Shown here one piece after another: positions 12,735 to 38,835 of a stretch of DNA of 64,000 bases (the first letter of the stretch is position 1; every line of letters begins with the position of its first letter). Both the position numbers and the translations under genes were made by a program. This stretch comes from Eubacteriaceae bacterium (lineage in GTDB: Bacteria; Bacillota; Clostridia; Eubacteriales; Anaerofustaceae). The notes below the pieces were generated by a model, which saw nothing but the letters and a program-made list of their open reading frames with translations, searched no databases and was not told where the DNA came from. Where the stretch lies: positions 1 through 64,000 of the forward strand of contig JAFXKY010000046.1 of assembly GCA_017531485.1 (NCBI GenBank), given 5' to 3'.

Positions 12735-13573
12735 TGGCTATTCAGTGGTATCCGGGGCACATGGCGAAAGCCACGCGTCAGATGAAGGAACAGCTTAAAA
12801 ATGTAGATATCATCGTAGTTCTCGGAGATGCCCGTGCTGTCAGAAGAAGTATTATCGGCAGCTTCCTTGAAGTGATCGGAAACAAACGCTACTGCATGGT
12901 CTTCAACAAAAGCGACCTTGCGGACGAAAAAGCCATTGAAGAATGGAAAGTGCGCTTCAAAGAAGAAAATATCGACGCATTCTTCATTGACTGCATGAGC
13001 AAAAAAGGCATCAAAGAACTCCTCACACATCTGTCTTCCCTTAAAGAACGTTTCCGTTTTGACAGGGAAGTCCGCGTTATGATCGCCGGAATCCCGAACG
13101 TCGGCAAATCAATGCTCATCAACTCCATCGCAGGGCGGGCTTCCGCACAGACGGGAAACCGCCCGGGGGTTACCAAAGGCAACAGGTGGGTAAAGGTAAA
13201 CAAAGAATTCTACCTCATGGATACTCCCGGTGTTCTCACTCCGAAATTCGATCAGGAAGCGGACGGATTCGTCCTTGCATCTCTCGGAAGCGTGAAGGAT
13301 ACTGTTTTCGACAAAGAGGAGCTTGCCCTGAAGGTAATAGAATTCATGAGCGAAAAATATCCGGCTCTTTTAAAGGAAAGATATAAACTCTCCGAGCTCA
13401 CTACCCCCATCGAAACATATGAACAGATCGGCATCAACCGCGGATTCCGTTCAAAAGGCGGGATCGTGGATTATGACCGCACGGCGAATATTATTCTCGA
13501 CGAATTCAAAAACGGCAAGATAGGAAGGATATCTTTTGACAGAGTCGGTGACATGGACAATGAAGCTGAATGA
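12734..13573 (+). CDS. rbgA: Ribosome biogenesis GTPase RbgA (YlqF)
   Basis: A 279-residue circularly permuted GTPase required for late 50S assembly. The N-terminus MAIQWYPGHMAKATRQM is the family hallmark. Motif order is permuted: G4 NKSD (~56), then G1 GIPNVGKSM (~122) and G3 DTPGVL (~165). A C-terminal helical domain follows. Start overlaps the mtnN stop by 1 base. The neighbour order rbgA-rnhB-yraN is common in Gram-positive bacteria. Confidence 0.96.
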   Translation: MAIQWYPGHMAKATRQMKEQLKNVDIIVVLGDARAVRRSIIGSFLEVIGNKRYCMVFNKSDLADEKAIEEWKVRFKEENIDAFFIDCMSKKGIKELLTHLSSLKERFRFDREVRVMIAGIPNVGKSMLINSIAGRASAQTGNRPGVTKGNRWVKVNKEFYLMDTPGVLTPKFDQEADGFVLASLGSVKDTVFDKEELALKVIEFMSEKYPALLKERYKLSELTTPIETYEQIGINRGFRSKGGIVDYDRTANIILDEFKNGKIGRISFDRVGDMDNEAE

Positions 13574-14726
13574 TATTGATATTTCAAAATTAAACATAAA
13601 AGAGATAACTGCTCTTGAAAAAGAAGTAAGTGGGGAAGAACTTGAAACTCTTGCCCGTTTTCTTCAGGAAGACAGCCGCGCAGGCGTGAGAAAAAGAGCC
13701 GCAGGCGTAATGAAAAGGTATGAGAAATACCGACTCGAAGAAGCAAGACTCGACGCGGTGAAGATGAGAGAAGATTATCATCACAAAAACGGCATCATTC
13801 ACATCGCGGGAATTGACGAAGTCGGACGTGGTCCGTTATTCGGGCCTGTTGTTGCCGCGGCAGTAATAATGCCGGAAGACAGCCGTATCCCTTATGTGAA
13901 CGATTCAAAACAGCTCTCCGCCGCCAAAAGAGAAGAGCTTTATGATATTATCATGAATGAAGCCGTAAGTGTCGGAATAGGTATCGTTGATAATAACGTC
14001 ATAGACGAGATCAATATTTTAAACGCCACAAAGCTCGCCATGAAGACGGCAGTGGACAATCTTTCCGTGCGTCCTGAGCTTCTCATTCTCGATGCGGTGG
14101 ATATTGAGTGTGATATACCCCAGGAAAGCGTGATAAAAGGCGATGCGAATGTTTACTGTATCGCCGCCGCAAGTATTGTTGCAAAAGTCGTCCGTGACAG
14201 GATGCTTGATGAATATTCAAAGATATATCCTCATTACGGTCTCGAAAAAAACAAAGGTTACGGCACACAGGAACACCTCGACGGAATAAACAAATTCGGT
14301 GCAACGCCGCTTCACAGAAAGACATTCATCTCAAAAATGGACTTCACAAGCGATTCCCTCGGAAGACGATGTGAAGAATTTGTCAAAAACTATCTCACTA
14401 CCACCCTCGGTTATGTTCTTCTCGAACAGCGTTTCAGATCCGACGGCGGAGAAATAGACCTGATAATGCAGGATAAAGATGAGATAGTCTTTGTGGAAGT
14501 CAAGGGAAGAGATCTGAAGGGTGCTTATGACGGGGAAGATGCGGTAACGCAGAGCAAAAAGCGCCGGATTATCCATGCGGCGGAAATGTACCTGAACGGA
14601 CGCGAAGTTCCTGCGAGATTTGACATCATCGCCGTAAAATATAACGCCGAAGAGGGAAAAATAAAAAATCTCCGTCATTATAAAAACGCGTTTTATAAAG
14701 GCGATGTATTTAATACGGGCAAATAA
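13560..14726 (+). CDS. rnhB: Ribonuclease HII fused to a YraN (UPF0102) nuclease-like domain
   Basis: One continuous reading frame of about 388 residues. Residues ~1-80 are the helical N-terminal extension seen in Gram-positive RNase HII. Residues ~82-270 are RNase HII, with AGIDEVGRGPLFGPVVAAAV containing the catalytic Asp-Glu, YVNDSKQLS, and later LILDAV and KGDANVYCIAAASIVAKVVR. Residues ~272-388 are a YraN domain with LGRRCEEFVKNYL, FRSDGGEIDLIM and FVEVKGRD, the restriction-endonuclease-like Glu-Asp-ExK core. RNase HII removes ribonucleotides from DNA; YraN function is not established. rnhB and yraN are normally separate neighbours. The ATG at 13560 has GGTGA upstream; a TTG at 13536 behind GGAAGGA is an alternative. 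Overlaps rbgA by 14 bases. Confidence 0.93.
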   Translation: MKLNDIDISKLNIKEITALEKEVSGEELETLARFLQEDSRAGVRKRAAGVMKRYEKYRLEEARLDAVKMREDYHHKNGIIHIAGIDEVGRGPLFGPVVAAAVIMPEDSRIPYVNDSKQLSAAKREELYDIIMNEAVSVGIGIVDNNVIDEINILNATKLAMKTAVDNLSVRPELLILDAVDIECDIPQESVIKGDANVYCIAAASIVAKVVRDRMLDEYSKIYPHYGLEKNKGYGTQEHLDGINKFGATPLHRKTFISKMDFTSDSLGRRCEEFVKNYLTTTLGYVLLEQRFRSDGGEIDLIMQDKDEIVFVEVKGRDLKGAYDGEDAVTQSKKRRIIHAAEMYLNGREVPARFDIIAVKYNAEEGKIKNLRHYKNAFYKGDVFNTGK

Positions 14727-14843: not shown

Positions 14844-15536
14844 ATGGAATATTCTCACGAAGTAAAGAATATGTGTCCTGTAGCGATAGGCGCTAACCAT
14901 GGACCTGCCCCGATTCCCCAGGAAGGAAAATGGGACAAAGTAACTCAGATCGATCAGATAAACGGTCTTACACACGGTGTCGGCGGATGTGCTCCTCAGC
15001 AGGGTGCATGCAAGCTCACACTCAACGTTAAAAACGGCATCATTCAGGAAGCTTTGGTCGAAACTCTCGGCTGCAGCGGTATGACACACTCAGCAGCTAT
15101 GGCAGCGGAAATCCTTCCGGGAAAAACGATCCTTGAAGCGCTCAACACAGACCTCGTCTGTGACGCGATCAACGTTGCGATGAGAGAACTTTTCCTTCAG
15201 ATCGTTTACGGCAGATCACAGACTGCTTTCTCCGAAGGCGGACTCCCCATCGGAGCAGGCCTTGAAGACCTCGGCAAAGGTCTCCGCAGTCAGGTCGGAA
15301 CAACATTCTCAACGCTCGAAAAAGGTCCCAGATACCTCGAGCTTGCAGAAGGTTATGTAAACAGACTTGCCCTTGACGAAAACAACGAGATCATCGGTTA
15401 TGAATTCGTTCACCTTGGCAAGATGATGGCAGCTATCAAAAAAGGAACACCTGCTGACGAAGCACTCAAAAACGCAACAGGTACATACGGCCGTTTTGAC
15501 AGCGCAGTAAAATATATTGATCCGAGGGAGGAATAA
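14844..15536 (+). CDS. NifU/IscU-like Fe-S scaffold-type protein paired with GGGtGRT protein
   Basis: A 230-residue protein whose residues ~45-110 follow the IscU/NifU N-terminal pattern: GGCAPQQGACKLTLNV, then GIIQEALVETLGCSGMTHSA and PGKTILEAL. The first two conserved cysteine regions are visible, but the third canonical scaffold cysteine is not obvious. The C-terminal part (EGYVNRLALDENNEIIGYEF) is not IscU-like. It lies 2 bases before the GGGtGRT gene, and NCBI-type annotation often pairs these two families. A role in iron-sulfur handling is inferred, not shown. A promoter-like TTGCAA-18-TAAAAT lies upstream at about 14751-14780. Confidence 0.82.
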   Translation: MEYSHEVKNMCPVAIGANHGPAPIPQEGKWDKVTQIDQINGLTHGVGGCAPQQGACKLTLNVKNGIIQEALVETLGCSGMTHSAAMAAEILPGKTILEALNTDLVCDAINVAMRELFLQIVYGRSQTAFSEGGLPIGAGLEDLGKGLRSQVGTTFSTLEKGPRYLELAEGYVNRLALDENNEIIGYEFVHLGKMMAAIKKGTPADEALKNATGTYGRFDSAVKYIDPREE

Positions 15537-15538
15537 AA

Positions 15539-16537
15539 ATGGCTTTATTTGAAAGTTATGAAAGAAGAATCGGCAAGATCACAACCGTTCTCGAACAGTA
15601 TAATATCGCATCCCTCGAAGAAGCAAAGGCGATCTGCGACGAAAAGGGCGTTGACGTATATTCAATCGTAAAAGGCGTTCAGCCCATCGCATTTGAAAAT
15701 GCTTGCTGGGCATACACACTCGGATGCGCGATCGCTGTAAAAGAAGGCGCAAAGACAGCCGCAGACGCTGCAAGATATATCGGAATCGGCCTTCAGGCGT
15801 TCTGCATCGAAGGCAGTGTAGCCGAAGACAGAAAAGTCGGTCTCGGTCACGGTAACCTCGGCGCAATGCTCCTCAGCGAAGAAACACAGTGCTTTGCATT
15901 CCTCGCAGGCCACGAATCATTCGCCGCAGCAGAAGGCGCTATCGGTATTGCCGCAAACGCTAACAAATCAAGACAGAATCCCCTCAGGGTTATCCTCAAC
16001 GGCCTCGGAAAAGACGCCGCCAAGATCATTTCACGTATCAACGGATTCACATACGTTCAGACATCTTTTGATTATGCAAGTGGTCAGCTTACAGTAGTAA
16101 AAGAAACAAAATACTCTGACGGTCCCAGAAGCGCAGTGCGTTGCTTCGGCGCTGATGACGTACGTGAAGGCGTTGCTATCATGCATCACGAAGGCGTTGA
16201 TGTTTCTATCACAGGAAACTCAACAAACCCCACACGTTTCCAGCATCCTGTTGCAGGAACATATAAAAAGGAATGTATCGAACAGGGTAAAAAATACTTC
16301 TCAGTAGCTTCCGGCGGCGGCACAGGCCGTACACTCCATCCGGATAATATGGCTGCTGGTCCCGCATCATACGGTATGACAGACACAATGGGACGTATGC
16401 ACTCAGATGCTCAGTTCGCAGGTTCTTCTTCAGTTCCGGCACATGTTGAAATGATGGGCTTCCTCGGCATGGGCAACAACCCCATGGTAGGCGCGACAGT
16501 TGCCTGCGCAGTTGCCGTAAATGAGGCGATGAAATAA
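15539..16537 (+). CDS. GGGtGRT family protein (function unknown)
   Basis: A 332-residue protein with the family-defining SGGGTGRTLHPDNMAAGPAS near residue 262, followed by GMTDTMGRMHSDAQFAGS. Other well-ordered Gly/Ala-rich stretches are KVGLGHGNLGAMLLSEETQC and MGFLGMGNNPMVGATVACAV at the C-terminus. There is no signal peptide and no obvious membrane segment. Conserved Cys and His residues could bind a metal or cluster, in line with the NifU-like neighbour 2 bases upstream. AGGGAGGAATAAAA precedes the start and a terminator follows. The molecular function of this family is not established. Confidence 0.9.
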   Translation: MALFESYERRIGKITTVLEQYNIASLEEAKAICDEKGVDVYSIVKGVQPIAFENACWAYTLGCAIAVKEGAKTAADAARYIGIGLQAFCIEGSVAEDRKVGLGHGNLGAMLLSEETQCFAFLAGHESFAAAEGAIGIAANANKSRQNPLRVILNGLGKDAAKIISRINGFTYVQTSFDYASGQLTVVKETKYSDGPRSAVRCFGADDVREGVAIMHHEGVDVSITGNSTNPTRFQHPVAGTYKKECIEQGKKYFSVASGGGTGRTLHPDNMAAGPASYGMTDTMGRMHSDAQFAGSSSVPAHVEMMGFLGMGNNPMVGATVACAVAVNEAMK

Positions 16538-16677: not shown

Positions 16678-16739
16678 CATTGTATACGTTTACTGAATAT
16701 TTTGACACATCAACCGTGAAATCAGGGGGAGGATATTGT

Positions 16740-17032
16740 ATGAAAAAGAAAATATTTGTTACGCTTATATCAATAATTTTACTTTGCAGTATCTGTACTT
16801 GTGTTTATGCAGCCGAAGTGGCAAATGGTACTTGATGGCAAGCGTTTACGAGCATTATCATAAAGGCGATATTAATCTTGACGGAAAGATAGAAGTCGGT
16901 GACTTATCCATATTGCTCCATGCTTATTGTTCCGATAACGAAGTAAGCGACATAAACGATGACGGCGTTGTAAATTCTGACGATGTTTCATTGTTACTGA
17001 GCTGGTATGGTACAGAAAGAACAAAATATTAA
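16740..17032 (+). pseudogene. Secreted type I dockerin protein, frameshifted and lacking a catalytic domain
   Basis: An ATG at 16740 behind a well-spaced GGGAGG encodes a clear signal peptide (MKKKIFVTLISIILLCSI, then CTCVYA before the cleavage point) but the frame stops at 16833-16835 after 31 residues. In another frame, open across 16736-17032, lies a type I dockerin: two EF-hand-like Ca-binding segments, GDINLDGKIEVGDLSILLHA and DINDDGVVNSDDVSLLLSWY. Promoter and palindromic terminator are intact. The simplest reading is a secreted dockerin-bearing protein that lost its central domain and frame. A sequencing indel is possible. Between signal and dockerin only about 15 residues remain, so an enzyme domain has been deleted or was never present. 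Confidence 0.8.
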
Positions 17033-17036
17033 TTAC

Positions 17037-17066
17037 AAAATGGGATGCAGATCTGCATCCCATTTT
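17037..17066. terminator. Bidirectional terminator between the dockerin remnant and the Mrp-like cluster
   Basis: A perfect 24-base palindrome (ATGGGATGCAGA and its complement) flanked by AAAA on the left and TTTTAT on the right. It lies 5 bases after the dockerin stop and about 85 bases beyond the last gene of the minus-strand cluster, so it can serve both. Confidence 0.85.
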
Positions 17067-17148
17067 ATATTGAAAATATGTCTGAAAATTGAGTTGTAAT
17101 ATTTACCAATAATTTCTGACTTTGGGGTAAATATTATTCGCCGCTGTT

Positions 17149-19275
17149 TTAAATAATTACCACGAACAGAAGTACAATACTCAACCCCACAACTGTCATC
17201 AGAAGTGCGTATGAGAAACTGTTTGTAATGTTGTTCCAGGTTTTTGAAATGTTGCGCTCCATTTCTGCAAGATAGATCTGGAATTTGTCCTGATGGGTGA
17301 ACTTATCAAGAATTATTCCCACAGCGTCGGATAAGCTGTTTCCGAGATGGATGCTTCCTTCTTTATGTCCTTTTACAAACGGCAGACAGTTTACAATGAA
17401 AACCAAAGCATCAAGGCTTGAAGATATAATATTTGAAATCATTCCGTAAACGGACATGATGAACCCGGATAATGGTTTTGTGATGATGTTTTCACCGAAT
17501 AATGAAAGAACCGAATAAGATGTATTCATTACAGCTTTTGCCGCAGGCATTGATAATTTGTTTTCACCAAAGACAGAAAGTATCTTATGTCCGGTATCTG
17601 TAATTATTCCGATAAGTGGCATATATACGTTGTTCTGCAAATCGAATGAAAACGGATTTACATATTTGCTGCCCTTTAATGTGAATTTTCTTATTACAAA
17701 CAGATAGACACACGCTGCAATACAAATGCTCTTTACTGCGCCCTGTAATTCATGCCATCCGAAAAAGTGAGGAATGTGGTGCAGCTCCGGTACGGCGAAG
17801 AACGCGTTTGCAATATTCAACGTATGAATCAGAAACTCTCCGTTTCCGAAGATTATTATTACACCGCAGAGAATCAAAAGAACGGCAGTTGTCGGAACAG
17901 ACATGTATTTTTTCATTCCGTCATACTTTTCCTGTACTTTTGCATCATCATTTTTTTCCACGAAAACACATACGAATAACTTGCTCATGTATGCTATGGT
18001 GCATCCGCCGCTTATCATGAAGATCAATTCACTGCAGGAGATGACCCAATCGGGCAAATGATGGGCACATTCCAGAAGCGCTTCGTGAATAAGTGTTTTT
18101 GATATATATCCGCTGAATAAAGGGATTGCACCGATACCAAGGCAGCCTATAAGGAAAATGAGTTTCAGTATAGTCTTGTTTCTTCCGAACCCTCTGATGT
18201 CGTTGAGATTGAGTTTATGCGTATTCATGTATATTACAGCCGCAACAGAGAACAGAAGACATTTGAACACCGAATGGTTCATCATATATCCTACGGTTCC
18301 TGTCGTTGCAACTGAAGCTTCTTCTCCGAGTATCGCATAACACGAAATTCCCATTAAGATAAATCCGATCTGCGACATGGAAGAACAGGCGAGAGTTCTT
18401 TTAAAATTGTCGCTCATTACTGCCAGAAATGCACCTATAAACATTGTGAGAAGTGAAAGAACCCACAGTACGATCCCAAAATCAATGTTTCCGTAAAACA
18501 TCGTGGCTGTTACTCCGATTATTCCAAAAATGCCTACTTTTGTAAGAAGCCCTGAAAGAAGTGCACTTGCAGGAGCCGGCGCAACCGGATGCGCTTTCGG
18601 AAGCCATACATGAAGTGGAAATACTGCTGCCTTGGCTCCAAACCCCACGACTATCATGAGTCCGCTTGCGAAGATCATAGAATAATCGTTTTGAAAAATG
18701 GTGATGTTTCTGAGTTCATCGAAATTCAGTGTGCCAAGTCTTGAAGATATTATTCCCATACCAAGAAACATAAACATGGATCCAAGGATCGCGACTCCGA
18801 GATAAGTCTTTGCGGCATAAACGGAGCTGTCATTTTCCTCGAATATTACCCACACGAATGATGAAAATGACATCACTTCAAAACATACGAACGCACTCAT
18901 AAAATCAGCGCTTAAAAATACTCCTACAGTCATCGCCAGAGTTATAAGATAGCAGAAGTAATACAGCTTAGTATTATGGTAGTGATGCATGTATTCAAGA
19001 GATACTACTGCACTGACAAGCCATGCCCCTGAGATGATTATTATGTATACGCATGACAATTCATTTAATTTCAGGGCAAAGCTTCCTGCCAGAACTCCCG
19101 TTATCTCACAGACTGCACCTTTGTAATTAATAGCCGCAAATACGCACAATATTAACTCTGCTGCTGATATTATTACCGCATATATTCTTCCGTATTGTTC
19201 ATCTTTTATAAACAAAGATGCTACAGAAGAAATGAGTGGGAAGAAGATAAGTAAGCAAATAAATGTGTTGTTCAT
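17149..19275 (-). CDS. NuoL/MrpA-type antiporter-like subunit with long C-terminal extension
   Basis: A 708-residue polytopic protein, last gene of the Mrp-like operon. Residues 1-530 form the ~14-helix antiporter-like core. The proton-path residues are present: Glu133 in CFEVMSFSS (TM5), Lys215 in GFGAKAAVFPLHVW (TM7), Lys246 in LLTKVGIFG (TM8) and Lys338 in NHSVFKCLLF (TM10-12). HPVAPAPASALLSG is the family signature. Residues ~535-685 are an extended, partly amphipathic stretch with an internal repeat (ILSVFGEN at 565, VLSLFGEN at 589), and residues 686-708 are a final membrane helix. That layout recalls the lateral helix of NuoL. The DUF4040/MbhE part of bacterial MrpA is not here but encoded separately upstream. 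AGGAGGATAAT precedes the start. Confidence 0.88.
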   Translation of the reverse strand: MNNTFICLLIFFPLISSVASLFIKDEQYGRIYAVIISAAELILCVFAAINYKGAVCEITGVLAGSFALKLNELSCVYIIIISGAWLVSAVVSLEYMHHYHNTKLYYFCYLITLAMTVGVFLSADFMSAFVCFEVMSFSSFVWVIFEENDSSVYAAKTYLGVAILGSMFMFLGMGIISSRLGTLNFDELRNITIFQNDYSMIFASGLMIVVGFGAKAAVFPLHVWLPKAHPVAPAPASALLSGLLTKVGIFGIIGVTATMFYGNIDFGIVLWVLSLLTMFIGAFLAVMSDNFKRTLACSSMSQIGFILMGISCYAILGEEASVATTGTVGYMMNHSVFKCLLFSVAAVIYMNTHKLNLNDIRGFGRNKTILKLIFLIGCLGIGAIPLFSGYISKTLIHEALLECAHHLPDWVISCSELIFMISGGCTIAYMSKLFVCVFVEKNDDAKVQEKYDGMKKYMSVPTTAVLLILCGVIIIFGNGEFLIHTLNIANAFFAVPELHHIPHFFGWHELQGAVKSICIAACVYLFVIRKFTLKGSKYVNPFSFDLQNNVYMPLIGIITDTGHKILSVFGENKLSMPAAKAVMNTSYSVLSLFGENIITKPLSGFIMSVYGMISNIISSSLDALVFIVNCLPFVKGHKEGSIHLGNSLSDAVGIILDKFTHQDKFQIYLAEMERNISKTWNNITNSFSYALLMTVVGLSIVLLFVVII

Positions 19276-19284
19276 ATTATCCTC

Positions 19285-20751
19285 CTAAAAAATAGTGCGT
19301 GCAACAGTCGTAATAAAATTAACAACAGCCGATGGATTCAATCCGAAAAAGATATTTACGGCAGTAAATACACATATCGGAATGAGCATTGTAAGATTTG
19401 CCTCTCTTACATCACTTTTTTCGTAAAGCGCTCTTCCGTTTTTCGGGAAAAAGGCGTGAAGTGTTATTCCCAGCATATAAGCCGCGCAGATAAGGGAAGT
19501 GATTACAAGAGCTATAGCCGCAACAGTTCCGTGAATTCCGCATTTTACAGCAGCATTTACAAGCAGGTATTTTGAAATGAATCCGCAGAATAAGGGAATA
19601 CCCATAAGTGAAAGGGCGCTGATGGTATAGCAGCCGAATGTGACGGGCATTTTCTTTCCGATTCCGTCAATTTCAAAGATATATGAAAACCCTGTCTGGT
19701 GCATAAATGAACCTGCACACATAAATGCCGTTATCTTGATTATTCCATGAAATACCATATGTGTTAACCCTGCAATGAAGCCTTCTTCTGTAAGAAGCAT
19801 AAGAGCTGTAATGATATATGACAGATTGCTGACAGTAGAATAAGCAAGCCTTCTTTTGAAGTGATTTTCTTTAAGTGCCTTTATTGCTCCGTAAAGCATC
19901 GTAAATATAGCAAACGCAAGTGCGGTGTATTGCGCGAATGTTCCGGTGAGGAAGTCTTGTCCGAATGAATAATATGTCAGACGTACGATGGCGAAAATAC
20001 CTGCCTTTACGACTGCGACGGCGTGAAGAAGGGCTGTAACCGGTGTCGGTGCTACCCCCGCTGCAGGGAGCCAGCCGGAAAACGGGAAGATCGCCGCCTT
20101 AACGCCGAATCCGAAAAACATCATAAGGAATACGGCAGATAAAAACGCTGTATCACTTTCTGAAGCGGTTACAAATCCTCCTGCAACAAACTCCGTAGAA
20201 GGGAAGAAACAGCTCAGAATTATTATTCCCACAAAGGCAAATGCACTGCCTCCGATGGAATAGACCGCATATTTTCTTCCTGCATAACGGCTTTCCGCAT
20301 CATTGTAATGAATGACGAGCGGAAGGGTGGTGAGAGTAAACATTTCATAAAATACATACAATGTCATCAGGTTTGCCGCATAACATATGCCCTGAGTCAC
20401 TCCGAAAGCCATAATGAAGAACGCAAAAAACGTATTCTGTCTTTCGTCGTGTTTCATATATTCAAATGCATATATCGTAACGAACACCCATAAACTGCTG
20501 CTCATCAACGAAAAGACCTTTGAAAAACCGTCCATTTTTAATTTCAGGGAAAAGTCCCCGGTTATCTGCAAAAGAGTAATTGAAGATGACGGCGTATTAA
20601 ACGACATGATCCATACAAACACAGTGAACAGGACGACAATCCCTTCGATAAGGATATTTTTTCTCTTACTGTCCTTTGCTTTTATAAACAGCATTCCCGA
20701 TGAGATCAGCATGGGCACAAAGACGGGAACCAATAATAATTTTTCGTCCAT
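19285..20751 (-). CDS. MrpD-like antiporter subunit (third of three in this operon)
   Basis: A 488-residue, ~14-helix protein of the NuoM/NuoN/MrpD family. The TM5 Glu is in LYVFYEMFTLTTLPLVIH, the TM7 Lys in GFGVKAAIFPFSGWLP, followed by the signature GVAPTPVTALLHAVAVVKAG, and the TM12 Lys in FHGIIKITAFM. All charged residues used for ion translocation are kept, so it should be active. It starts 5 bases after the preceding gene, with only a weak ribosome site, suggesting coupled translation. It would form a membrane channel module in the Mrp-like complex. Which ion it moves cannot be read from sequence. Confidence 0.9.
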   Translation of the reverse strand: MDEKLLLVPVFVPMLISSGMLFIKAKDSKRKNILIEGIVVLFTVFVWIMSFNTPSSSITLLQITGDFSLKLKMDGFSKVFSLMSSSLWVFVTIYAFEYMKHDERQNTFFAFFIMAFGVTQGICYAANLMTLYVFYEMFTLTTLPLVIHYNDAESRYAGRKYAVYSIGGSAFAFVGIIILSCFFPSTEFVAGGFVTASESDTAFLSAVFLMMFFGFGVKAAIFPFSGWLPAAGVAPTPVTALLHAVAVVKAGIFAIVRLTYYSFGQDFLTGTFAQYTALAFAIFTMLYGAIKALKENHFKRRLAYSTVSNLSYIITALMLLTEEGFIAGLTHMVFHGIIKITAFMCAGSFMHQTGFSYIFEIDGIGKKMPVTFGCYTISALSLMGIPLFCGFISKYLLVNAAVKCGIHGTVAAIALVITSLICAAYMLGITLHAFFPKNGRALYEKSDVREANLTMLIPICVFTAVNIFFGLNPSAVVNFITTVARTIF

Positions 20752-20755
20752 ACTT

Positions 20756-22219
20756 TTACATTCCCAGAATAATTTCTATTACGCCAACTATCTTTGATCC
20801 GAAAAGACCGCATAAAACAGTCAATGCACTGAGTGCCCCCATTGATGCAACCATAAGCGGACTTTCTTTGATTCTTACGATCTCTTCTTTACGGTTTCCT
20901 TTTTTCTCTTCTTTCGCTCCGAAAAATCCGTCGATAACTATCGGAAGAAGATATCCTGCAGTAAGGATGGCTGAAATTATAAGTGTTACGGGAATGAGAA
21001 CGCCCCATCCTCCTATTTCAGCAGAGAGAGCCGCAGCTGAAATGTACCACTTGCTCAGAAATCCCGAAAGTGGCGGAATACCTATAAGGGAAAGCGCAGA
21101 GATTCCGAAAAACACAGTCGTAAACGGAAGTTTCTTCCCGATTTTGCCGAGTGAATTTACAGTTGTATTATGAGTATAAAAGATGATGGAACCTGCTGCC
21201 ATGAACAGAACACATTTTGCTGCTGCATGGGCAATAAGGTGCATGATTCCTCCCAGAAGCCCTTGCGGGGAAAGGACGGAGAGGGAGAGCATTATGTAAG
21301 ATATGTTACTTACTGTAGAATAAGCAAGTCTCTTTTTGAGGATGTTTTCTTTATATGCCATCATTGATCCCATAAGCACTGTTATAGTTCCGAGTATGAT
21401 CCATGTGTATTGCACCCATGTTCCGGCCAGAATTTCGTAACCGACTGTGTAGTAAATGCATCTTATAACTGCAATTACTCCTGCTTTCGCGATAATTCCG
21501 GAAAGCAGCGCACTTGCGGGAGCCGGAGCAACCGGGTGAGCTGTGGGAAGCCATCCATGCATAGGATACATGCCGGCCTTTGTGCCGAATCCGATTATAG
21601 CCGCCATAGAGGCAATAAGGAGAAGAACGGGGGACTTATGTACCTTTTCCATGTTGAGATTGCCACCGAGGACGAATGTTGCATCATTTGTGTAATTGTA
21701 TACGACGAAAATGAAAAATAATCCTGCCATTGCCCCTGCGATTGAGTAAAACAGGTATTTCATTGCCGCCTGCATTGATTTCTCATCACCTTCATGCAAA
21801 ACAAGTGGCATTGAGAGGAGTGTTGCAAGTTCAAAAAACAGATACATGGTAATAAGGTTTCTTGAATAGCATACTCCCATCATTGCACCTAAAGAAAGTG
21901 TCTGAAATGAGAGGAAGCGGTCTTCGTTGTCTTCATGTTCGAGGTATTTGAACGAAAATATTCCTACCGTCAGCCAGCCTGCAGCCACTACAAGAGCGAA
22001 TATTCCGCCGAGTCTGTCCGCGCCGACAGACAAATCGATCTTTCCCGAAATAAGGGGCATACTCAGAACCGCATGGTCTGTCAACATGAAAAGTGAGATG
22101 ATAAATACGACGAGATATGATGTTCCCACCATTTTCATTTTGGATTTTCTGTCCTTTATCTTCATAAACGGCAAAGCAGTGCCAAGAATGAAGGGGATCA
22201 AAACTGATAACATTAACAT
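20756..22219 (-). CDS. MrpD-like antiporter subunit (second of three in this operon)
   Basis: A 487-residue, ~14-helix antiporter-like protein. TM5 Glu is in MYLFFELATLLSMPLVLHEG, TM7 Lys in IGFGTKAGMYPMHGWLPTAH, then PVAPAPASALLSGIIAKAG, and the TM12 Lys in IAHAAAKCVLFMAAG. It is more NuoL/NuoN-like in its TAHPVAPAPAS signature than the neighbouring 488-residue paralogue. The start MLMLSVLIPF has AAGG 6 bases upstream. A cytosolic Lys/Glu-rich insertion (GAKEEKKGNRKEE) lies near the C-terminus. It is 19 bases downstream of the first mrpD and in the same transcript. Confidence 0.9.
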   Translation of the reverse strand: MLMLSVLIPFILGTALPFMKIKDRKSKMKMVGTSYLVVFIISLFMLTDHAVLSMPLISGKIDLSVGADRLGGIFALVVAAGWLTVGIFSFKYLEHEDNEDRFLSFQTLSLGAMMGVCYSRNLITMYLFFELATLLSMPLVLHEGDEKSMQAAMKYLFYSIAGAMAGLFFIFVVYNYTNDATFVLGGNLNMEKVHKSPVLLLIASMAAIIGFGTKAGMYPMHGWLPTAHPVAPAPASALLSGIIAKAGVIAVIRCIYYTVGYEILAGTWVQYTWIILGTITVLMGSMMAYKENILKKRLAYSTVSNISYIMLSLSVLSPQGLLGGIMHLIAHAAAKCVLFMAAGSIIFYTHNTTVNSLGKIGKKLPFTTVFFGISALSLIGIPPLSGFLSKWYISAAALSAEIGGWGVLIPVTLIISAILTAGYLLPIVIDGFFGAKEEKKGNRKEEIVRIKESPLMVASMGALSALTVLCGLFGSKIVGVIEIILGM

Positions 22220-22238
22220 AATGGACCTTCTTTCAATT

Positions 22239-23726
22239 TTATATAAATAACTCTATTCCTGATGTTATGGCTTTTATTACAGGAACGCTGTAACAGCCAA
22301 GTATAATATTTAATACAGCAAGCATTATTGATGCAAAGACATATTCAGGATATAGCTTTTCTCTCTTTTCGCTATCTTTGGACGTCGAATAGATGTTTAT
22401 TACTGTCCTCAGGAAATATACTGTGTTGAGTATCGTGCTCAAAGCAAGTACGACAAGTATTACCAAGGATAAAGTATTTTCTTTTTCCGCAGCCGCACTT
22501 GAGATAAGTATTTTCGATGAGAATCCGGCAAATGCCGGGACGCCGATCATTGATAGGGATCCGACCGTAAACATCAGCGATGCAAATGGGGATCTTTTTG
22601 CTGCACCTCTCAGATCGTGAAATGCCATTGACTTTCCCGATACACCAATGATCCTGGCGGAGCTGATAAACAACAGGGATTTTGTGACCGAATGGGCAAA
22701 TATATGATATATTCCTGCAGCAATGCCCGATACTGACGAAAGGGATATTGCTGTGAATATATATCCGATCTGGGCTGTTGACGAAAATGCTATCATCCGG
22801 TTAATGTTGTGCTGTTTTATTGCAGATACTGAGCCGATGATAATGGCGATAAGCCCGAAGAGGAGATATATGTTCATCACATTTCTCATACCCTCAACAT
22901 CTGTTCCAATAACGCGGAACATGATTTTTATCATCAGGAATATATATACCTTCGAAGTGAATGACGACAGAATTGCTGATGAGGTGGGAGTTGAATATGC
23001 ATATGTATCCGGCATCCACAGATGAAACGGATAAAGTCCGCTTTTTATTGCAAGACCGGTACATATGACCGCACAGGCGACTGTAAGAGGAAAATCGTAA
23101 TTCCCATTTCTTACGATAAGCACGATCGCTTCATGTATGTTCTCCATCAACAGATGCCCTGTCATTGTGTATATGAGAAATATTCCGAAAAGGAACAACC
23201 CTGAACCGAACAGATTGAGTATCAGGTATCTTGTAGCAGCTATTGTTGTTTTTCCTATCTCCTTTATCATGAGTATTCCGCAGGAAGCAAGGGTGAGTAT
23301 TTCAAGGAATACGTATGCGGTGAAAAGGTCATTTGTGTATACAATAGCAACCATCGCCACACATATGAGATTGATAAGAACGAAATATCGGTTTCTCTTT
23401 TCCCTTCTGACGTTGATGTTGATGTATTCATCTCCTCCCATAAGGGATAAAAGAAGGATTATTCCGAATCCGCAGCACACCAGTGATTCTAACGGGCCGA
23501 CTCTGAGCTCGTTTCCCCACGGGGCAGGGAAGTGTCCGAGAACATAATGATAATATTGTCCGTCTGATGCAGTCTGTATGAACACCGATGCGGAAAACAC
23601 GATTACGATAATAATCGAAACAACGCACACCCTTCTTGCGTTTCTGTCATTGAAAACAGAGCATAAAACCGCACCGATAAGACATGTTATTACTGAGAAA
23701 AACGGAAGATTGATTATAAACGGCAT
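22239..23726 (-). CDS. mrpD: MrpD/MbhH-like antiporter subunit
   Basis: A 495-residue protein with the multi-helix antiporter fold, in the position that MrpD/MbhH occupies after MrpC/MbhG. TM5 Glu is in TAYVFLEILTLASCGI, TM7 Lys in LAIKSGLYPFHLWMPDTYAY, followed by STPTSSAILSSFTSKVYIF, and a TM12 Lys in FAHSVTKSLLF. The ORF is open upstream to 23768, but the start at 23726 (MPFIINLPFF) is preceded by GGAGG and lies 1 base after the mrpC stop. In Mrp complexes this subunit is a main antiporter module. Confidence 0.9.
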   Translation of the reverse strand: MPFIINLPFFSVITCLIGAVLCSVFNDRNARRVCVVSIIIVIVFSASVFIQTASDGQYYHYVLGHFPAPWGNELRVGPLESLVCCGFGIILLLSLMGGDEYININVRREKRNRYFVLINLICVAMVAIVYTNDLFTAYVFLEILTLASCGILMIKEIGKTTIAATRYLILNLFGSGLFLFGIFLIYTMTGHLLMENIHEAIVLIVRNGNYDFPLTVACAVICTGLAIKSGLYPFHLWMPDTYAYSTPTSSAILSSFTSKVYIFLMIKIMFRVIGTDVEGMRNVMNIYLLFGLIAIIIGSVSAIKQHNINRMIAFSSTAQIGYIFTAISLSSVSGIAAGIYHIFAHSVTKSLLFISSARIIGVSGKSMAFHDLRGAAKRSPFASLMFTVGSLSMIGVPAFAGFSSKILISSAAAEKENTLSLVILVVLALSTILNTVYFLRTVINIYSTSKDSEKREKLYPEYVFASIMLAVLNIILGCYSVPVIKAITSGIELFI

Positions 23727-23727
23727 T

Positions 23728-24102
23728 TTATCTTTCCTCCTCATCTGCAGCAAGCAGGTATATTTCATCGAGGTTCAGAGTATGAAACCTTTTGTACAGT
23801 CTGTATGACAAAGATAATGTAATGGACGTGACACTGACAGACACTACAATACCCGTCAACACAAGTCCTGCAGGAACGGGGTTTACATATAACGACGGGT
23901 CTGTATTTCCATTTATGATTATCGGCGCGAGTCTGTCTGAAATGTATCCGACAGACGTAATAAACAAAAACAGCCCTGTGTCCATGATGTTCAGACCTAT
24001 GATCTTCTTTATAAGATTTCTGTGCAAAAGAAGAGTGCTGAGCCCGATCGTAAACAGTATCATGGCTATGATCTGCGGGAAATGTCCGGATATTTTTTCC
24101 AT
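23728..24102 (-). CDS. mrpC: MrpC/MbhG (NuoK-like) subunit
   Basis: A 124-residue protein with three membrane helices. Signatures are LLHRNLIKKIIGLNIMDTG, VNPVPAGLVLTGIVVSVSVT and the terminal LNLDEI, as in MnhC/MrpC. NuoK-like subunits carry glutamates in mid-membrane; here the retained polar residues are few. The start at 24102 has AGGAAGGG upstream; the longer ORF start at 24180 lies inside the previous gene. It follows mrpB with 1 base between them. Confidence 0.92.
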   Translation of the reverse strand: MEKISGHFPQIIAMILFTIGLSTLLLHRNLIKKIIGLNIMDTGLFLFITSVGYISDRLAPIIINGNTDPSLYVNPVPAGLVLTGIVVSVSVTSITLSLSYRLYKRFHTLNLDEIYLLAADEEER

Positions 24103-24103
24103 T

Positions 24104-25009
24104 TTACACCCTTCCTTTCTTGAACATACAGTATATCCCGTACATATTAAGACATACGATAATTCCCACGGCAATATCAAGGGGAAGTATCAGCCCGGCA
24201 CTTATGATCCTGCCGGGGGTGCCTGTTGAGATTATACTGTCAAGATGATTTGCGCCAACATAAAAGGAATATGCTTTTGACAGGCAGTAAAACAAAAGCG
24301 CGGCAGAGCAAATTACCTTGAAACGTTTTTCAGTTACAAATTTTCCTGCAATCTCGTCTCCGAATGCCTCTGAGAAAAGTATCAGGCCTGCACCAAGTAT
24401 CGCACCTCCTGAAAATCCTCCTCCGGGGGAAATGTGACCGTTGATAATTACATATATTCCGTAAACAAGAATTACAGGTACACTTACTTTTGCAGCTTGA
24501 ACGAGTATGTTATCTTCAGTGAGTGGGAAATATCTCTCTACTGAAGAGCGGTTTGTGCGAAGAAGGATCCACACACAGTTCAGTGCCGTGAAAAGTACAA
24601 ATGACTCTCCGAGGGTGTCAAAAGCCCTGTAATCAAGGATCATTCCTGCGACGGCATTCACAGCGCCCGTCTCCTTCATTCCGCTTTGCACATATCGGTC
24701 CGAAACTTCTTTCATCTGTGAATTTACAACGCCAAACTCCGGAAGAGAGCATACCGTCGCAATCAGCACAACCAGTATGACAACGATGCATATCCCTGCA
24801 GAAATATAATAACTGATAGGAAAAGAAGAACTGACGTGTTTTTCTTTTTTCGGAGTATTGACCTCGAATAATGTATTTATAAGGTGTTCTGTATGTCGGA
24901 TCTCTGAATGGGTTTTTGTTACTGTCTCATCGAGCTTTCCCACGTCTTCAAGCCAGTCTTTTGTTCCGTTTATTCTTTCGGAGAAAAAATCTTTGAAGTT
25001 ACTTTTCAT
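24104..25009 (-). CDS. mrpB: MbhE-MrpB fusion subunit with cytosolic N-terminal extension
   Basis: A 301-residue protein. Residues ~1-62 are a charged, helical, non-membrane extension (SERINGTKDWLEDVGKLDE, then TVTKTHSEIRHTEH). A single helix and the MbhE-type segment follow, including MILDYRAFDTLGESFVLFTA, normally near the end of bacterial MrpA. Residues ~170-300 are MrpB, with IINGHISPGGGFSGGAILGA and TGTPGRIISAGLILPLDIAV. Thus two Mbh-type subunits are fused. The ATG at 25009 has AAGGAG 7 bases upstream and overlaps the preceding gene by 11 bases. The N-terminal extension is unusual for the family. Confidence 0.87.
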   Translation of the reverse strand: MKSNFKDFFSERINGTKDWLEDVGKLDETVTKTHSEIRHTEHLINTLFEVNTPKKEKHVSSSFPISYYISAGICIVVILVVLIATVCSLPEFGVVNSQMKEVSDRYVQSGMKETGAVNAVAGMILDYRAFDTLGESFVLFTALNCVWILLRTNRSSVERYFPLTEDNILVQAAKVSVPVILVYGIYVIINGHISPGGGFSGGAILGAGLILFSEAFGDEIAGKFVTEKRFKVICSAALLFYCLSKAYSFYVGANHLDSIISTGTPGRIISAGLILPLDIAVGIIVCLNMYGIYCMFKKGRV

Positions 25010-25277
25010 CCTCTTTCTCCTTTTCAATTATTTTTCTGTCTGTATCCACCTGATGAATTTTTCTTAAGGTCATAAGAAAAAGTATTCCGCTGACTCCTGC
25101 TCCGACAGCTGCTTCTGTTATCGCAAGGTCAGGTGCTGCAAGCAGGATCCATACGACTGACATTGTAATGCTGTAGGACATAAAAATAACTACACTTGTC
25201 AGAAGTCTTTTTGACAGGGATGCACCGACAGCACATATCACAAGCAGAATCAACAGAATATCTCTAAATATGCTCAT
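24999..25277 (-). CDS. MbhD-like (DUF4040) subunit, separate MrpA C-terminal module
   Basis: A 92-residue protein with three hydrophobic segments and the DUF4040 signature LLAAPDLAITEAAVGAGVSG, which in bacterial MrpA forms part of the C-terminal domain. A Lys/Glu-rich tail follows. Here it is an independent gene, as in archaeal Mbh/Mrp clusters. The start at 25277 has GGAGG 6 bases upstream; it overlaps mrpG by 14 bases. Confidence 0.88.
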   Translation of the reverse strand: MSIFRDILLILLVICAVGASLSKRLLTSVVIFMSYSITMSVVWILLAAPDLAITEAAVGAGVSGILFLMTLRKIHQVDTDRKIIEKEKEDEK

Positions 25278-25605
25278 GTATATCCTCCTTGCCTTCAATA
25301 TTTTCGTCCACTTCTCCGGAAGCTGTCTTTAATGTGATTTCCGACAACAGATGCGAAGCGACAGGGCATGTAAACCACATAATGACAAGCACAGTCAGCA
25401 TCTTTATTGCAGCCATGAAGTCAAAAACATAGACTGCCGATGCAAATACTATTCCCATCATCCCCAACGTATCACCCACACCTGCGCAGTGCAGACTGTT
25501 GAGTATAAATGAAAAACGGTTTACGCCGATGACTGCGCTTGTGTATGCAAACGTACCGATGAATATAAATGCCGCAACGAATATAAACTTAATCCATTCT
25601 GTCAT
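25264..25605 (-). CDS. mrpG: MrpG subunit
   Basis: A 113-residue protein with three membrane helices and the MnhG/PhaG pattern: IGTFAYTSAVIGVNRFSFIL, LHCAGVGDTLGMMGIVFAS, VLVIMWFTCPVASHLLS. The C-terminal tail is acidic. Start chosen at 25605 because GGAGG lies 6 bases upstream. It overlaps both mrpF (17 bases) and the DUF4040 gene (14 bases), so these are translationally coupled. Confidence 0.88.
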   Translation of the reverse strand: MTEWIKFIFVAAFIFIGTFAYTSAVIGVNRFSFILNSLHCAGVGDTLGMMGIVFASAVYVFDFMAAIKMLTVLVIMWFTCPVASHLLSEITLKTASGEVDENIEGKEDIHEHI

Positions 25606-25906
25606 TTTCATCCTCCGTATGTTCGTTATTGTCCCCCATGGGAATGTAGACCTTTGCAAATATGACCACCGCCATAAAGCTTATCAGAACGTATATAAGA
25701 GCGATATCTGCAATGGAAGAATCCTTCATTTTGGCAGACAAAAGAAGTATCAGGGAAATGATAATGGAGCTTATCATATTTACACATAAAAGTCTGTCAC
25801 ATACAGATTTGCTTTTTATAGAACGGATAAGAAGTATCCCCGCAAGTATAGAAAGATAAACCGTTGTAAAAGTAAACAAATAAGCGTACGCAGATTGTAT
25901 TTCCAT
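25589..25906 (-). CDS. mrpF: MrpF subunit
   Basis: A 105-residue protein with three membrane helices. The central motif SVCDRLLCVNMISS followed by SSIADIALIYVLISFMAVVI is the MnhF/PhaF signature (DR..A..., D-A-L-.Y-.L). An acidic C-terminal tail extends beyond the usual end. GGAGG 7 bases before ATG; its start overlaps the mrpE stop (TAATG). Confidence 0.9.
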   Translation of the reverse strand: MEIQSAYAYLFTFTTVYLSILAGILLIRSIKSKSVCDRLLCVNMISSIIISLILLLSAKMKDSSIADIALIYVLISFMAVVIFAKVYIPMGDNNEHTEDENDRMD

Positions 25907-26367
25907 TACTCTACCTCCATTTTTCTTAGAATACGGATAAAGTCACTGTTTTCAATTCCGTCAGCAAGTGATTTCTCGATGCAGTGAATGATGAATTTCT
26001 GTCCTGACTGATCAACCGTGATCGTTCCCGGGGTAAGGCTGATGGAATTTGCGAGGATCATATTCAGAAAATCCGAACTTATTCCCGATGAAAAACTTAC
26101 AAGATAAGGATGGGTAAGGTTCTTCTTAGCGTAGATAAGCTTTATTACGGAAATGTTCGATAAGATCAGATTTTTAAAGACGCACCAGAGATATTCAATG
26201 GCAATAAACGTATTTCTGAGTATAATCTTTTCTTTTTTGATAGAGTATCCGAGATATTTTTTGCAAAATAAAAACACGACAATTGATACTCCGCCAAAAA
26301 CAAGTCCGATCTCAACGGTGAACTTACCGCTGATAACGATAGAAAACAATAATAAAAGTACTAAAAT
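25906..26367 (-). CDS. mrpE: MrpE subunit, probable non-ATG start
   Basis: A 147-153-residue protein, first gene of the Mrp-like operon. Two N-terminal membrane helices are followed by the MnhE motif FLNMILANSISLTPGTITVD. No ATG or GTG lies at the N-terminus. The frame is open only from an ATT codon at 26367 (preceded by a stop at 26370) and has a TTG at 26349 with no ribosome site. The residues between (ILVLLLL) extend the first membrane helix, as expected for MrpE, so the ATT is favoured. MrpE supports assembly and activity of Mrp complexes. Confidence 0.85.
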   Translation of the reverse strand: MLVLLLLFSIVISGKFTVEIGLVFGGVSIVVFLFCKKYLGYSIKKEKIILRNTFIAIEYLWCVFKNLILSNISVIKLIYAKKNLTHPYLVSFSSGISSDFLNMILANSISLTPGTITVDQSGQKFIIHCIEKSLADGIENSDFIRILRKMEVE

Positions 26368-26420: not shown

Positions 26421-26449
26421 ATTATAGTCCTGCGTTTCGATGATGTCAA
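26421..26449 (-). promoter_or_regulatory. Promoter of the ten-gene Mrp-like operon
   Basis: Minus strand: TTGACA (26444-26449), 17 bases, TATAAT (26421-26426). A fully consensus promoter 55 bases before mrpE and the only strong one seen for the cluster. Confidence 0.88.
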
Positions 26450-38677: not shown

Positions 38678-38819
38678 AAAAAAAACCTCACATGAGGCGC
38701 TCTGACATTAAAATATCAAAACCTCATCATCCGGGTCTCCCCGTAGGTATTGGCACCGTGCGTATTCGTCGGTTGCCGCAGTTTCATCGTGCCTATTCAC
38801 TCCGCTGCTCGTAATAAGG
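38678..38819 (-). promoter_or_regulatory. SAM-I (S-box) riboswitch controlling metK
   Basis: Minus strand aptamer from P1 CCTTATTA (38819-38812) to its partner TGATGAGG (38729-38722). Core conserved bases are GATGAAACTGCGGCAACC, then GGTGCCAATACC and GGGGAGACCC, as in S-box leaders. Downstream, CCTCATGTGAGG (38697-38686) followed by eight T is a short terminator; TGATGAGG of P1 can alternatively pair with CCTCA of that terminator as an antiterminator. SAM binding should stabilise P1 and turn metK off. Confidence 0.93.
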
Positions 38820-38835
38820 ATTATTAACGGTCGGT

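Follow-up and report, generated by a model that had tools for sequence, protein, structure and literature searches.

What does a membrane machine with four antiporter-like subunits do when no redox partner is encoded beside it? The question arises in the window (the whole stretch of 64,000 nucleotides analysed here, from the start of a contig of 203 kb), where ten ORFs run nearly contiguously on the minus strand from 26349 to 17149, at least 17 kb from both ends of the DNA that was read. Pfam matches for all ten gave the order mrpE-F-G-mbhD-(mbhE+mrpB)-C-D1-D2-D3-L (Table 1). This is the cluster proposed by the initial annotation, and we found all of its genes in the proposed place, strand and order, each matching its own Pfam family; the four large NuoL/MrpD-like subunits correspond to four Proton_antipo_M (PF00361) proteins. 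The description of an Mbh/Mrp-type arrangement with a split MrpA also held, with the correction that the order described as archaeal is common in Clostridia as well.

Judged from the sequence, the ten genes probably form a single operon that encodes a cation/proton exchanger of the Group 3 Mrp type, which would stand alone without a redox part and have four antiporter-like subunits, and we place the probability of this joint reading at about 75%. Among its parts, MbhD (DUF4040) is the counterpart of part of the MrpA C-terminus, the MbhE-MrpB fusion keeps the FDTLGE and PGGGFSGG motifs in the alignment, and the top PDB match of D1 is MbsH (1.8e-52). The ORF caller probably starts three genes too early, with likelier starts at about 24102 for MrpC, 25611 for MrpG and 23726 for D1; MrpE may start slightly further upstream than the TTG at 26349. 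NCBIfam models also match, all under their cut-offs; "hydrogenase 4 subunit B" is one of their labels, "monovalent cation/H+ antiporter subunit D" another. An annotation as "NADH dehydrogenase" or "hydrogenase 4", which the family models favour for such genes, can occur in a genome without complex I.

Table 1. Genes and flanking signals of the cluster (positions in the window)
Feature	Position	Strand	Observations
Promoter-like site TTGACA-17-TATAAT	26421..26449	-	12/12 sigma-70 consensus match only; about 70 bases upstream of mrpE
MrpE (MNHE)	25906..26349	-	147 aa from TTG; PF01899 4.3e-20
MrpF	25589..25906	-	PF04066 1.5e-10 (MrpF_PhaF)
MrpG	25264..25659	-	PF03334 5.5e-15 (PhaG)
MbhD / DUF4040	24999..25298	-	PF13244 2.2e-20; MbsD 9e-10 in PDB
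MbhE-MrpB fusion	24104..25027	-	PF20501 + PF04039 (MbhE + MnhB); MbsE 2.4e-20
MrpC/NuoK-like	23728..24180	-	PF00420 4.2e-20 (Oxidored_q2); alignment
D1, MrpD/MbsH-like antiporter subunit	22239..23768	-	about 495-509 aa; PF00361 5.1e-49
D2, antiporter-like subunit	20756..22219	-	487 aa; PF00361 2.7e-55; separate clade in trees
D3, antiporter-like subunit	19285..20751	-	488 aa; PF00361 1.3e-54
L, antiporter-like subunit	17149..19275	-	708 aa; PF00361 9.6e-54; C-terminal extension and final TM helix
Terminator-like hairpin, 16-bp stem	17034..17069	-	scan; 80 bases downstream of L

In a pattern scan, a promoter-like and a terminator-like site enclose exactly the ten genes; such patterns are overall no more frequent than in shuffled sequence, and the 12/12 promoter-like site is the best of the region. 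Adjoining the operon terminator, a small ORF (16736-17032) has a weak dockerin type I match, under the Pfam cut-off. Elsewhere in the window, a NifU-like protein adjoins a GGGtGRT family protein (14844-16537), and a single protein (13536-14726) combines ribonuclease HII with a UPF0102 (YraN-like) domain as a fusion.

Regulation differs among the relatives. A GAF-PAS-sigma54 activator-HTH protein is encoded just 5' of mrpE in L121 (4643-6634), L122, L123, L124, L125, L126 and L128, which are redox-less relatives with mostly three large subunits; the activator is 50-74% identical between loci, and five of these relatives have -24/-12 sites (TGGCAC-N5-TTGCT type) directly before mrpE. Such a site was found in only 1 of 58 four-subunit loci. 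The sigma-54 regulon paper that we searched does not hold this mrpE-linked activator or these sites. A Na+ riboswitch (DUF1646) was considered as regulator and rejected, with no Rfam match for it in the window, in 14 four-subunit loci or in 8 loci of the class. On the minus strand of the window, a SAM riboswitch lies at 38721-38820.

The cluster is not a peculiarity of one contig. An MrpC scan of GTDB species contigs gave at least 502 relatives, and we fetched the best 80 loci, which come mostly from Lachnospiraceae and Oscillospiraceae of guts and rumens. The complete ten-gene set was present in 58 of these 80 Clostridia loci, 56 of them in strictly the same order, so the cluster of the window is not due to chance; nearly all uncut loci among the 80 read E-F-G-MbhD-EB-C-D1-D2-D3-L. 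An extra L-like match 5' of mrpE in L058 and L075 resembles an ABC-transporter ORF and was taken as false. Within the window's own family the cluster was found in 3 of 13 genomes, one of the three having three large subunits, and it was absent from one genome of the same genus and nine others of the family. This patchy occurrence indicates that the operon is not essential for an economy based on Rnf and ATP synthase. Smaller forms exist as well: L111, L112, L113 and L114 (bacteria, same order) carry a redox-less E-F-G-MbhD-MbhE-B-C-D with a single large subunit, similar to the stand-alone Mrp of P. furiosus, and the three-subunit clusters L131 and L132 have D1 and two L-type subunits, without a middle subunit. 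The operon is real and widely conserved, and it is an enlarged version of the known Mrp machine, which as a rule has one or two such large subunits. In the literature searched, a partial library, we found no description of a four-subunit redox-less clostridial operon.

For the genome as a whole (2.17 Mb, 95% complete), we ran the search for redox subunits that the initial annotation had called for. None of PF00346 (NuoD/hydrogenase large subunit), PF00146 (NuoH) and PF01058 (NuoB) matched anywhere in it at E<=1, and the same searches gave matches in 11-12 of 14 control genomes. The reported lack of NuoB-, NuoD- and NuoH-type subunits in the window thus extends to the genome. It encodes exactly four PF00361 proteins, all within the cluster, and it has one RnfD-type match. 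It also has, on contig C65 of G000 (L136), a tandem pair of F-type ATP synthase c-subunit genes that are not identical. Each carries the pattern GQG...VAETTGIYG, in which established work links the Q in GQG and the VAETTGIY to Na+ binding.

Group 3 Mrp systems are defined by the lack of mrpA and the presence of mrpD, sometimes in several copies (PMC8415708), and this definition can be tested on the cluster. The small Mrp subunits E, F, G, B and C are encoded together, no full-length mrpA is present, the large subunits are all of mrpD type, and MbhD and MbhE-MrpB are separate genes. The marks of redox-driven pumps (MBH, MBS, complex I), namely NuoB-, NuoD- and NuoH-like subunits, are missing, as are those of canonical Group 1/2 Mrp, which are an mrpA with MrpB-like C-terminus, the order ABCDEFG and two large subunits. 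Since the redox-less mrpEFGBB'CD of P. furiosus is reported to use Na+ as its coupling ion (PMC8415708), a stand-alone cation/proton exchanger is the most likely reading. The option of an antiporter with many ion paths, raised by the initial annotation, gained from the stand-alone operon, the conserved residues of cation module and pump units, and the missing NuoB/D/H-type subunits.

To set residue positions over the 58 complete loci, we aligned the subunits with PDB chains and with NuoL/M/N of E. coli. The proton-path residues of the Mrp superfamily, TM5 Glu, TM7 Lys and TM12 Lys, are all there in the large subunits, so the TM5 Glu and TM7 Lys claimed for each of the four were recovered. In D1, D2, D3 and L alike, the TM5 Glu is kept in 57-58 of 58 loci (one Glu-to-Asp exception), and TM7 Lys, TM11 His, TM11 Lys and TM12 Lys in 58 of 58. 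The four units are not equivalent, as the TM8 His of MrpA/NuoL is present only in D3 (58/58) and missing from D1, D2 and L; the middle subunit of most three-subunit relatives carries it.

Invariant residues of the cation module are MbhD Glu62 (58/58), MbhE Asp137 and Glu141, MrpB Phe205, and MrpF Asp37 and Asp67. In the three-subunit cluster of G004 (L027:11499-12236) the otherwise invariant MbhD Glu is replaced by Lys, with an Asp four residues further; this extra Asp lies near where MrpA has Glu. MrpF also has Asn43 (58/58) at the position of Asp38 of B. pseudofirmus, for which simulations show Na+ binding (PMC9568556); Asp38 is a proposed Na+ site and no published criterion of membership. 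MBH, MBS and canonical Mrp have Asp at this position, so the cation route may differ in the window's cluster. Asn is the residue in all of the 16 redox-less clostridial relatives that were examined, whether their large subunits number one, three or four; Asp was found in the three loci of G147 and G094, where a NuoB-type gene is nearby. The Asn/Asp difference may mark lineage rather than mechanism.

Trees of the large subunits, which the initial annotation had proposed to build, were made with 73 and 81 sequences; their deep branches relative to MrpA/NuoL have weak support, and the analysis flagged long branches. In both trees D1, D2, D3 and L each form an old clade of their own; D2 is the sister of D3 (support 100/99), and D2, D3 and L together are split from D1. 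The D2/D3 split is older than the loci. Recent duplication of the large subunits is thereby ruled out, and the reservation that two of the four might be inactive or recent duplicates is contradicted by these old clades and by the core residues kept in all four.

Three-subunit clusters have a single middle subunit between D1 and L, and in most cases it lies outside the D2+D3 pair in the trees (moderate support for the pair, SH-aLRT 93), which points to duplication of a middle subunit; the fourth large subunit of the window's cluster probably arose in this way. The number of modules has changed several times: G004 has three large subunits with a D2-type middle one, so D3 was probably lost; the fourth subunit of G180 is on a separate branch and was gained independently; and each of G239 and G286 has two L-type subunits.

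The AlphaFold model of L (pLDDT 84) has a confident antiporter core, followed by broken, low-confidence helices from 546 to 660 and the last TM helix, and its fold is best matched in the PDB by MrpA (7qru_A), then by MrpD, HycC of E. coli formate hydrogenlyase and NuoL. The model of L from the three-subunit G004 has one long helix at 559-601. TM15 and TM16 are 185 residues apart in the window's L (median 159), compared with 103 in NuoL and 121 in G004, and the C-terminal segment is longer than that of NuoL in all compared loci. This lateral segment spans 119 to 224 residues across loci; scaling with subunit number was rejected, several four-subunit loci having only 119-123.

The exchanger would work as follows. 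E, F, G, MbhD, MbhE-MrpB and C would form the cation module, and D1, D2, D3 and L would be aligned in the membrane as four proton-translocating units, with L at the distal end, anchored by its long C-terminal segment. Na+ (or K+) would be exchanged electrogenically for H+, in a direction set by the two gradients, and the exchange would link the Na+ gradient of the predicted Rnf and Na+-type ATP synthase with the proton gradient and with pH control. We infer this link to Rnf and ATP synthase from their co-occurrence in one genome. If correct, the operon marks a likely Na+/H+ link in many Rnf-carrying gut and rumen Clostridia.

How proton units divide their work is still disputed in the complex I superfamily. 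Four working units could move several H+ per Na+, the modules acting as gears in an antiporter that equals an enlarged complex I arm in length; this is possible but doubtful. Lineages with one, three or four units would then convert between Na+ and H+ gradients at different ratios. As the forms with one, three and four units lack a redox part and share a common cation module, the dependence of the H+/Na+ ratio on module number is testable in them without electron transfer. A real chance, though below even, goes to an ordinary Mrp behaviour in which only some of the large subunits move protons and the extra D2 or D3 is structural or tunes the coupling. The restriction of the TM8 His to D3 and the three large subunits with which G004 manages speak for it, against the core proton-path residues kept in each subunit across the 58 loci. 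The small subunits might also be shared by two alternative complexes, D1-D2-L and D1-D3-L, like the variant NdhD/NdhF of cyanobacteria. D2 and D3 are sisters, and stand-alone forms with one middle subunit exist in relatives; however, both are kept together in one operon of fixed order (56 of 58 loci) and G180 gained its fourth subunit independently, which leaves this idea a small probability.

The initial annotation had also considered a membrane arm docking to a redox module encoded elsewhere. Its electron module would have to differ from NuoB/D/H; Rnf or a soluble hydrogenase docking to L would be examples. Among solved structures, D1, MbhD and MbhE-MrpB have their closest relatives in the redox-driven MBS, RnfD is encoded here and in most of the carriers that were checked, and Rnf genes lie close to the cluster in two of the fetched 80 loci. 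However, carriers G076 and G108 have neither RnfD nor NuoB, relatives of the three redox families are absent from the genome, and clustering of flanking ORFs gave no family in more than 8 of the 80 loci, so the conserved linkage that would have favoured a redox partner was not seen. Among 243 genomes of the class, a strong match to MbhE-MrpB over nearly its full length occurs in nine; PF01058 is missing in seven of them and lies on another contig or megabases off in the other two (G099, G179). The redox-linked relatives in G147 and G094 keep PF01058 within about 5 kb of MrpB, so linked modules elsewhere would have shown up. Docking to an unlinked redox module is thus unlikely, with only a slight probability.

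The stand-alone exchanger has its nearest known counterpart in the Group 3 Mrp of P. furiosus (mrpEFGBB'CD, PMC8415708), likewise redox-less, without mrpA and in the order E-F-G-MbhD/E-MrpB-C-D. That system has one large subunit, whereas the window's cluster is bacterial and has four; MbhE is fused to MrpB here and to MbhD there, and the MrpF Asp38 position is Asn here, unlike in P. furiosus. The redox-less three-subunit clostridial clusters (L121-L125, L128, L027) share the small subunits, D1, a middle subunit, L and the MrpF Asn, but they have MbhE and MrpB separate, and several have the sigma-54 promoter and activator.

Canonical Group 1/2 Mrp (B. pseudofirmus 7qru, Anoxybacillus 6z16) shares the small subunits, the antiporter core residues and the stand-alone state, but has an intact MrpA, a different order and two large subunits; in the window the TM8 His belongs to D3, a subunit without the C-terminal part of canonical MrpA. 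Four large subunits are also found in 2M complex I, through an extra antiporter subunit (Chadwick et al. 2018, cited in PMC7117926); it is redox-driven and quinone-reducing, whereas the window's cluster has no redox part. The MBS membrane arm (PDB 6u8y) has the MbhE-MrpB fusion (MbsE), MbsH as closest relative of D1, and in MbsH' extra C-terminal helices as in L; it differs by its redox module and two large subunits. The closest solved parts for this cluster are the membrane arms of MBS and MBH.
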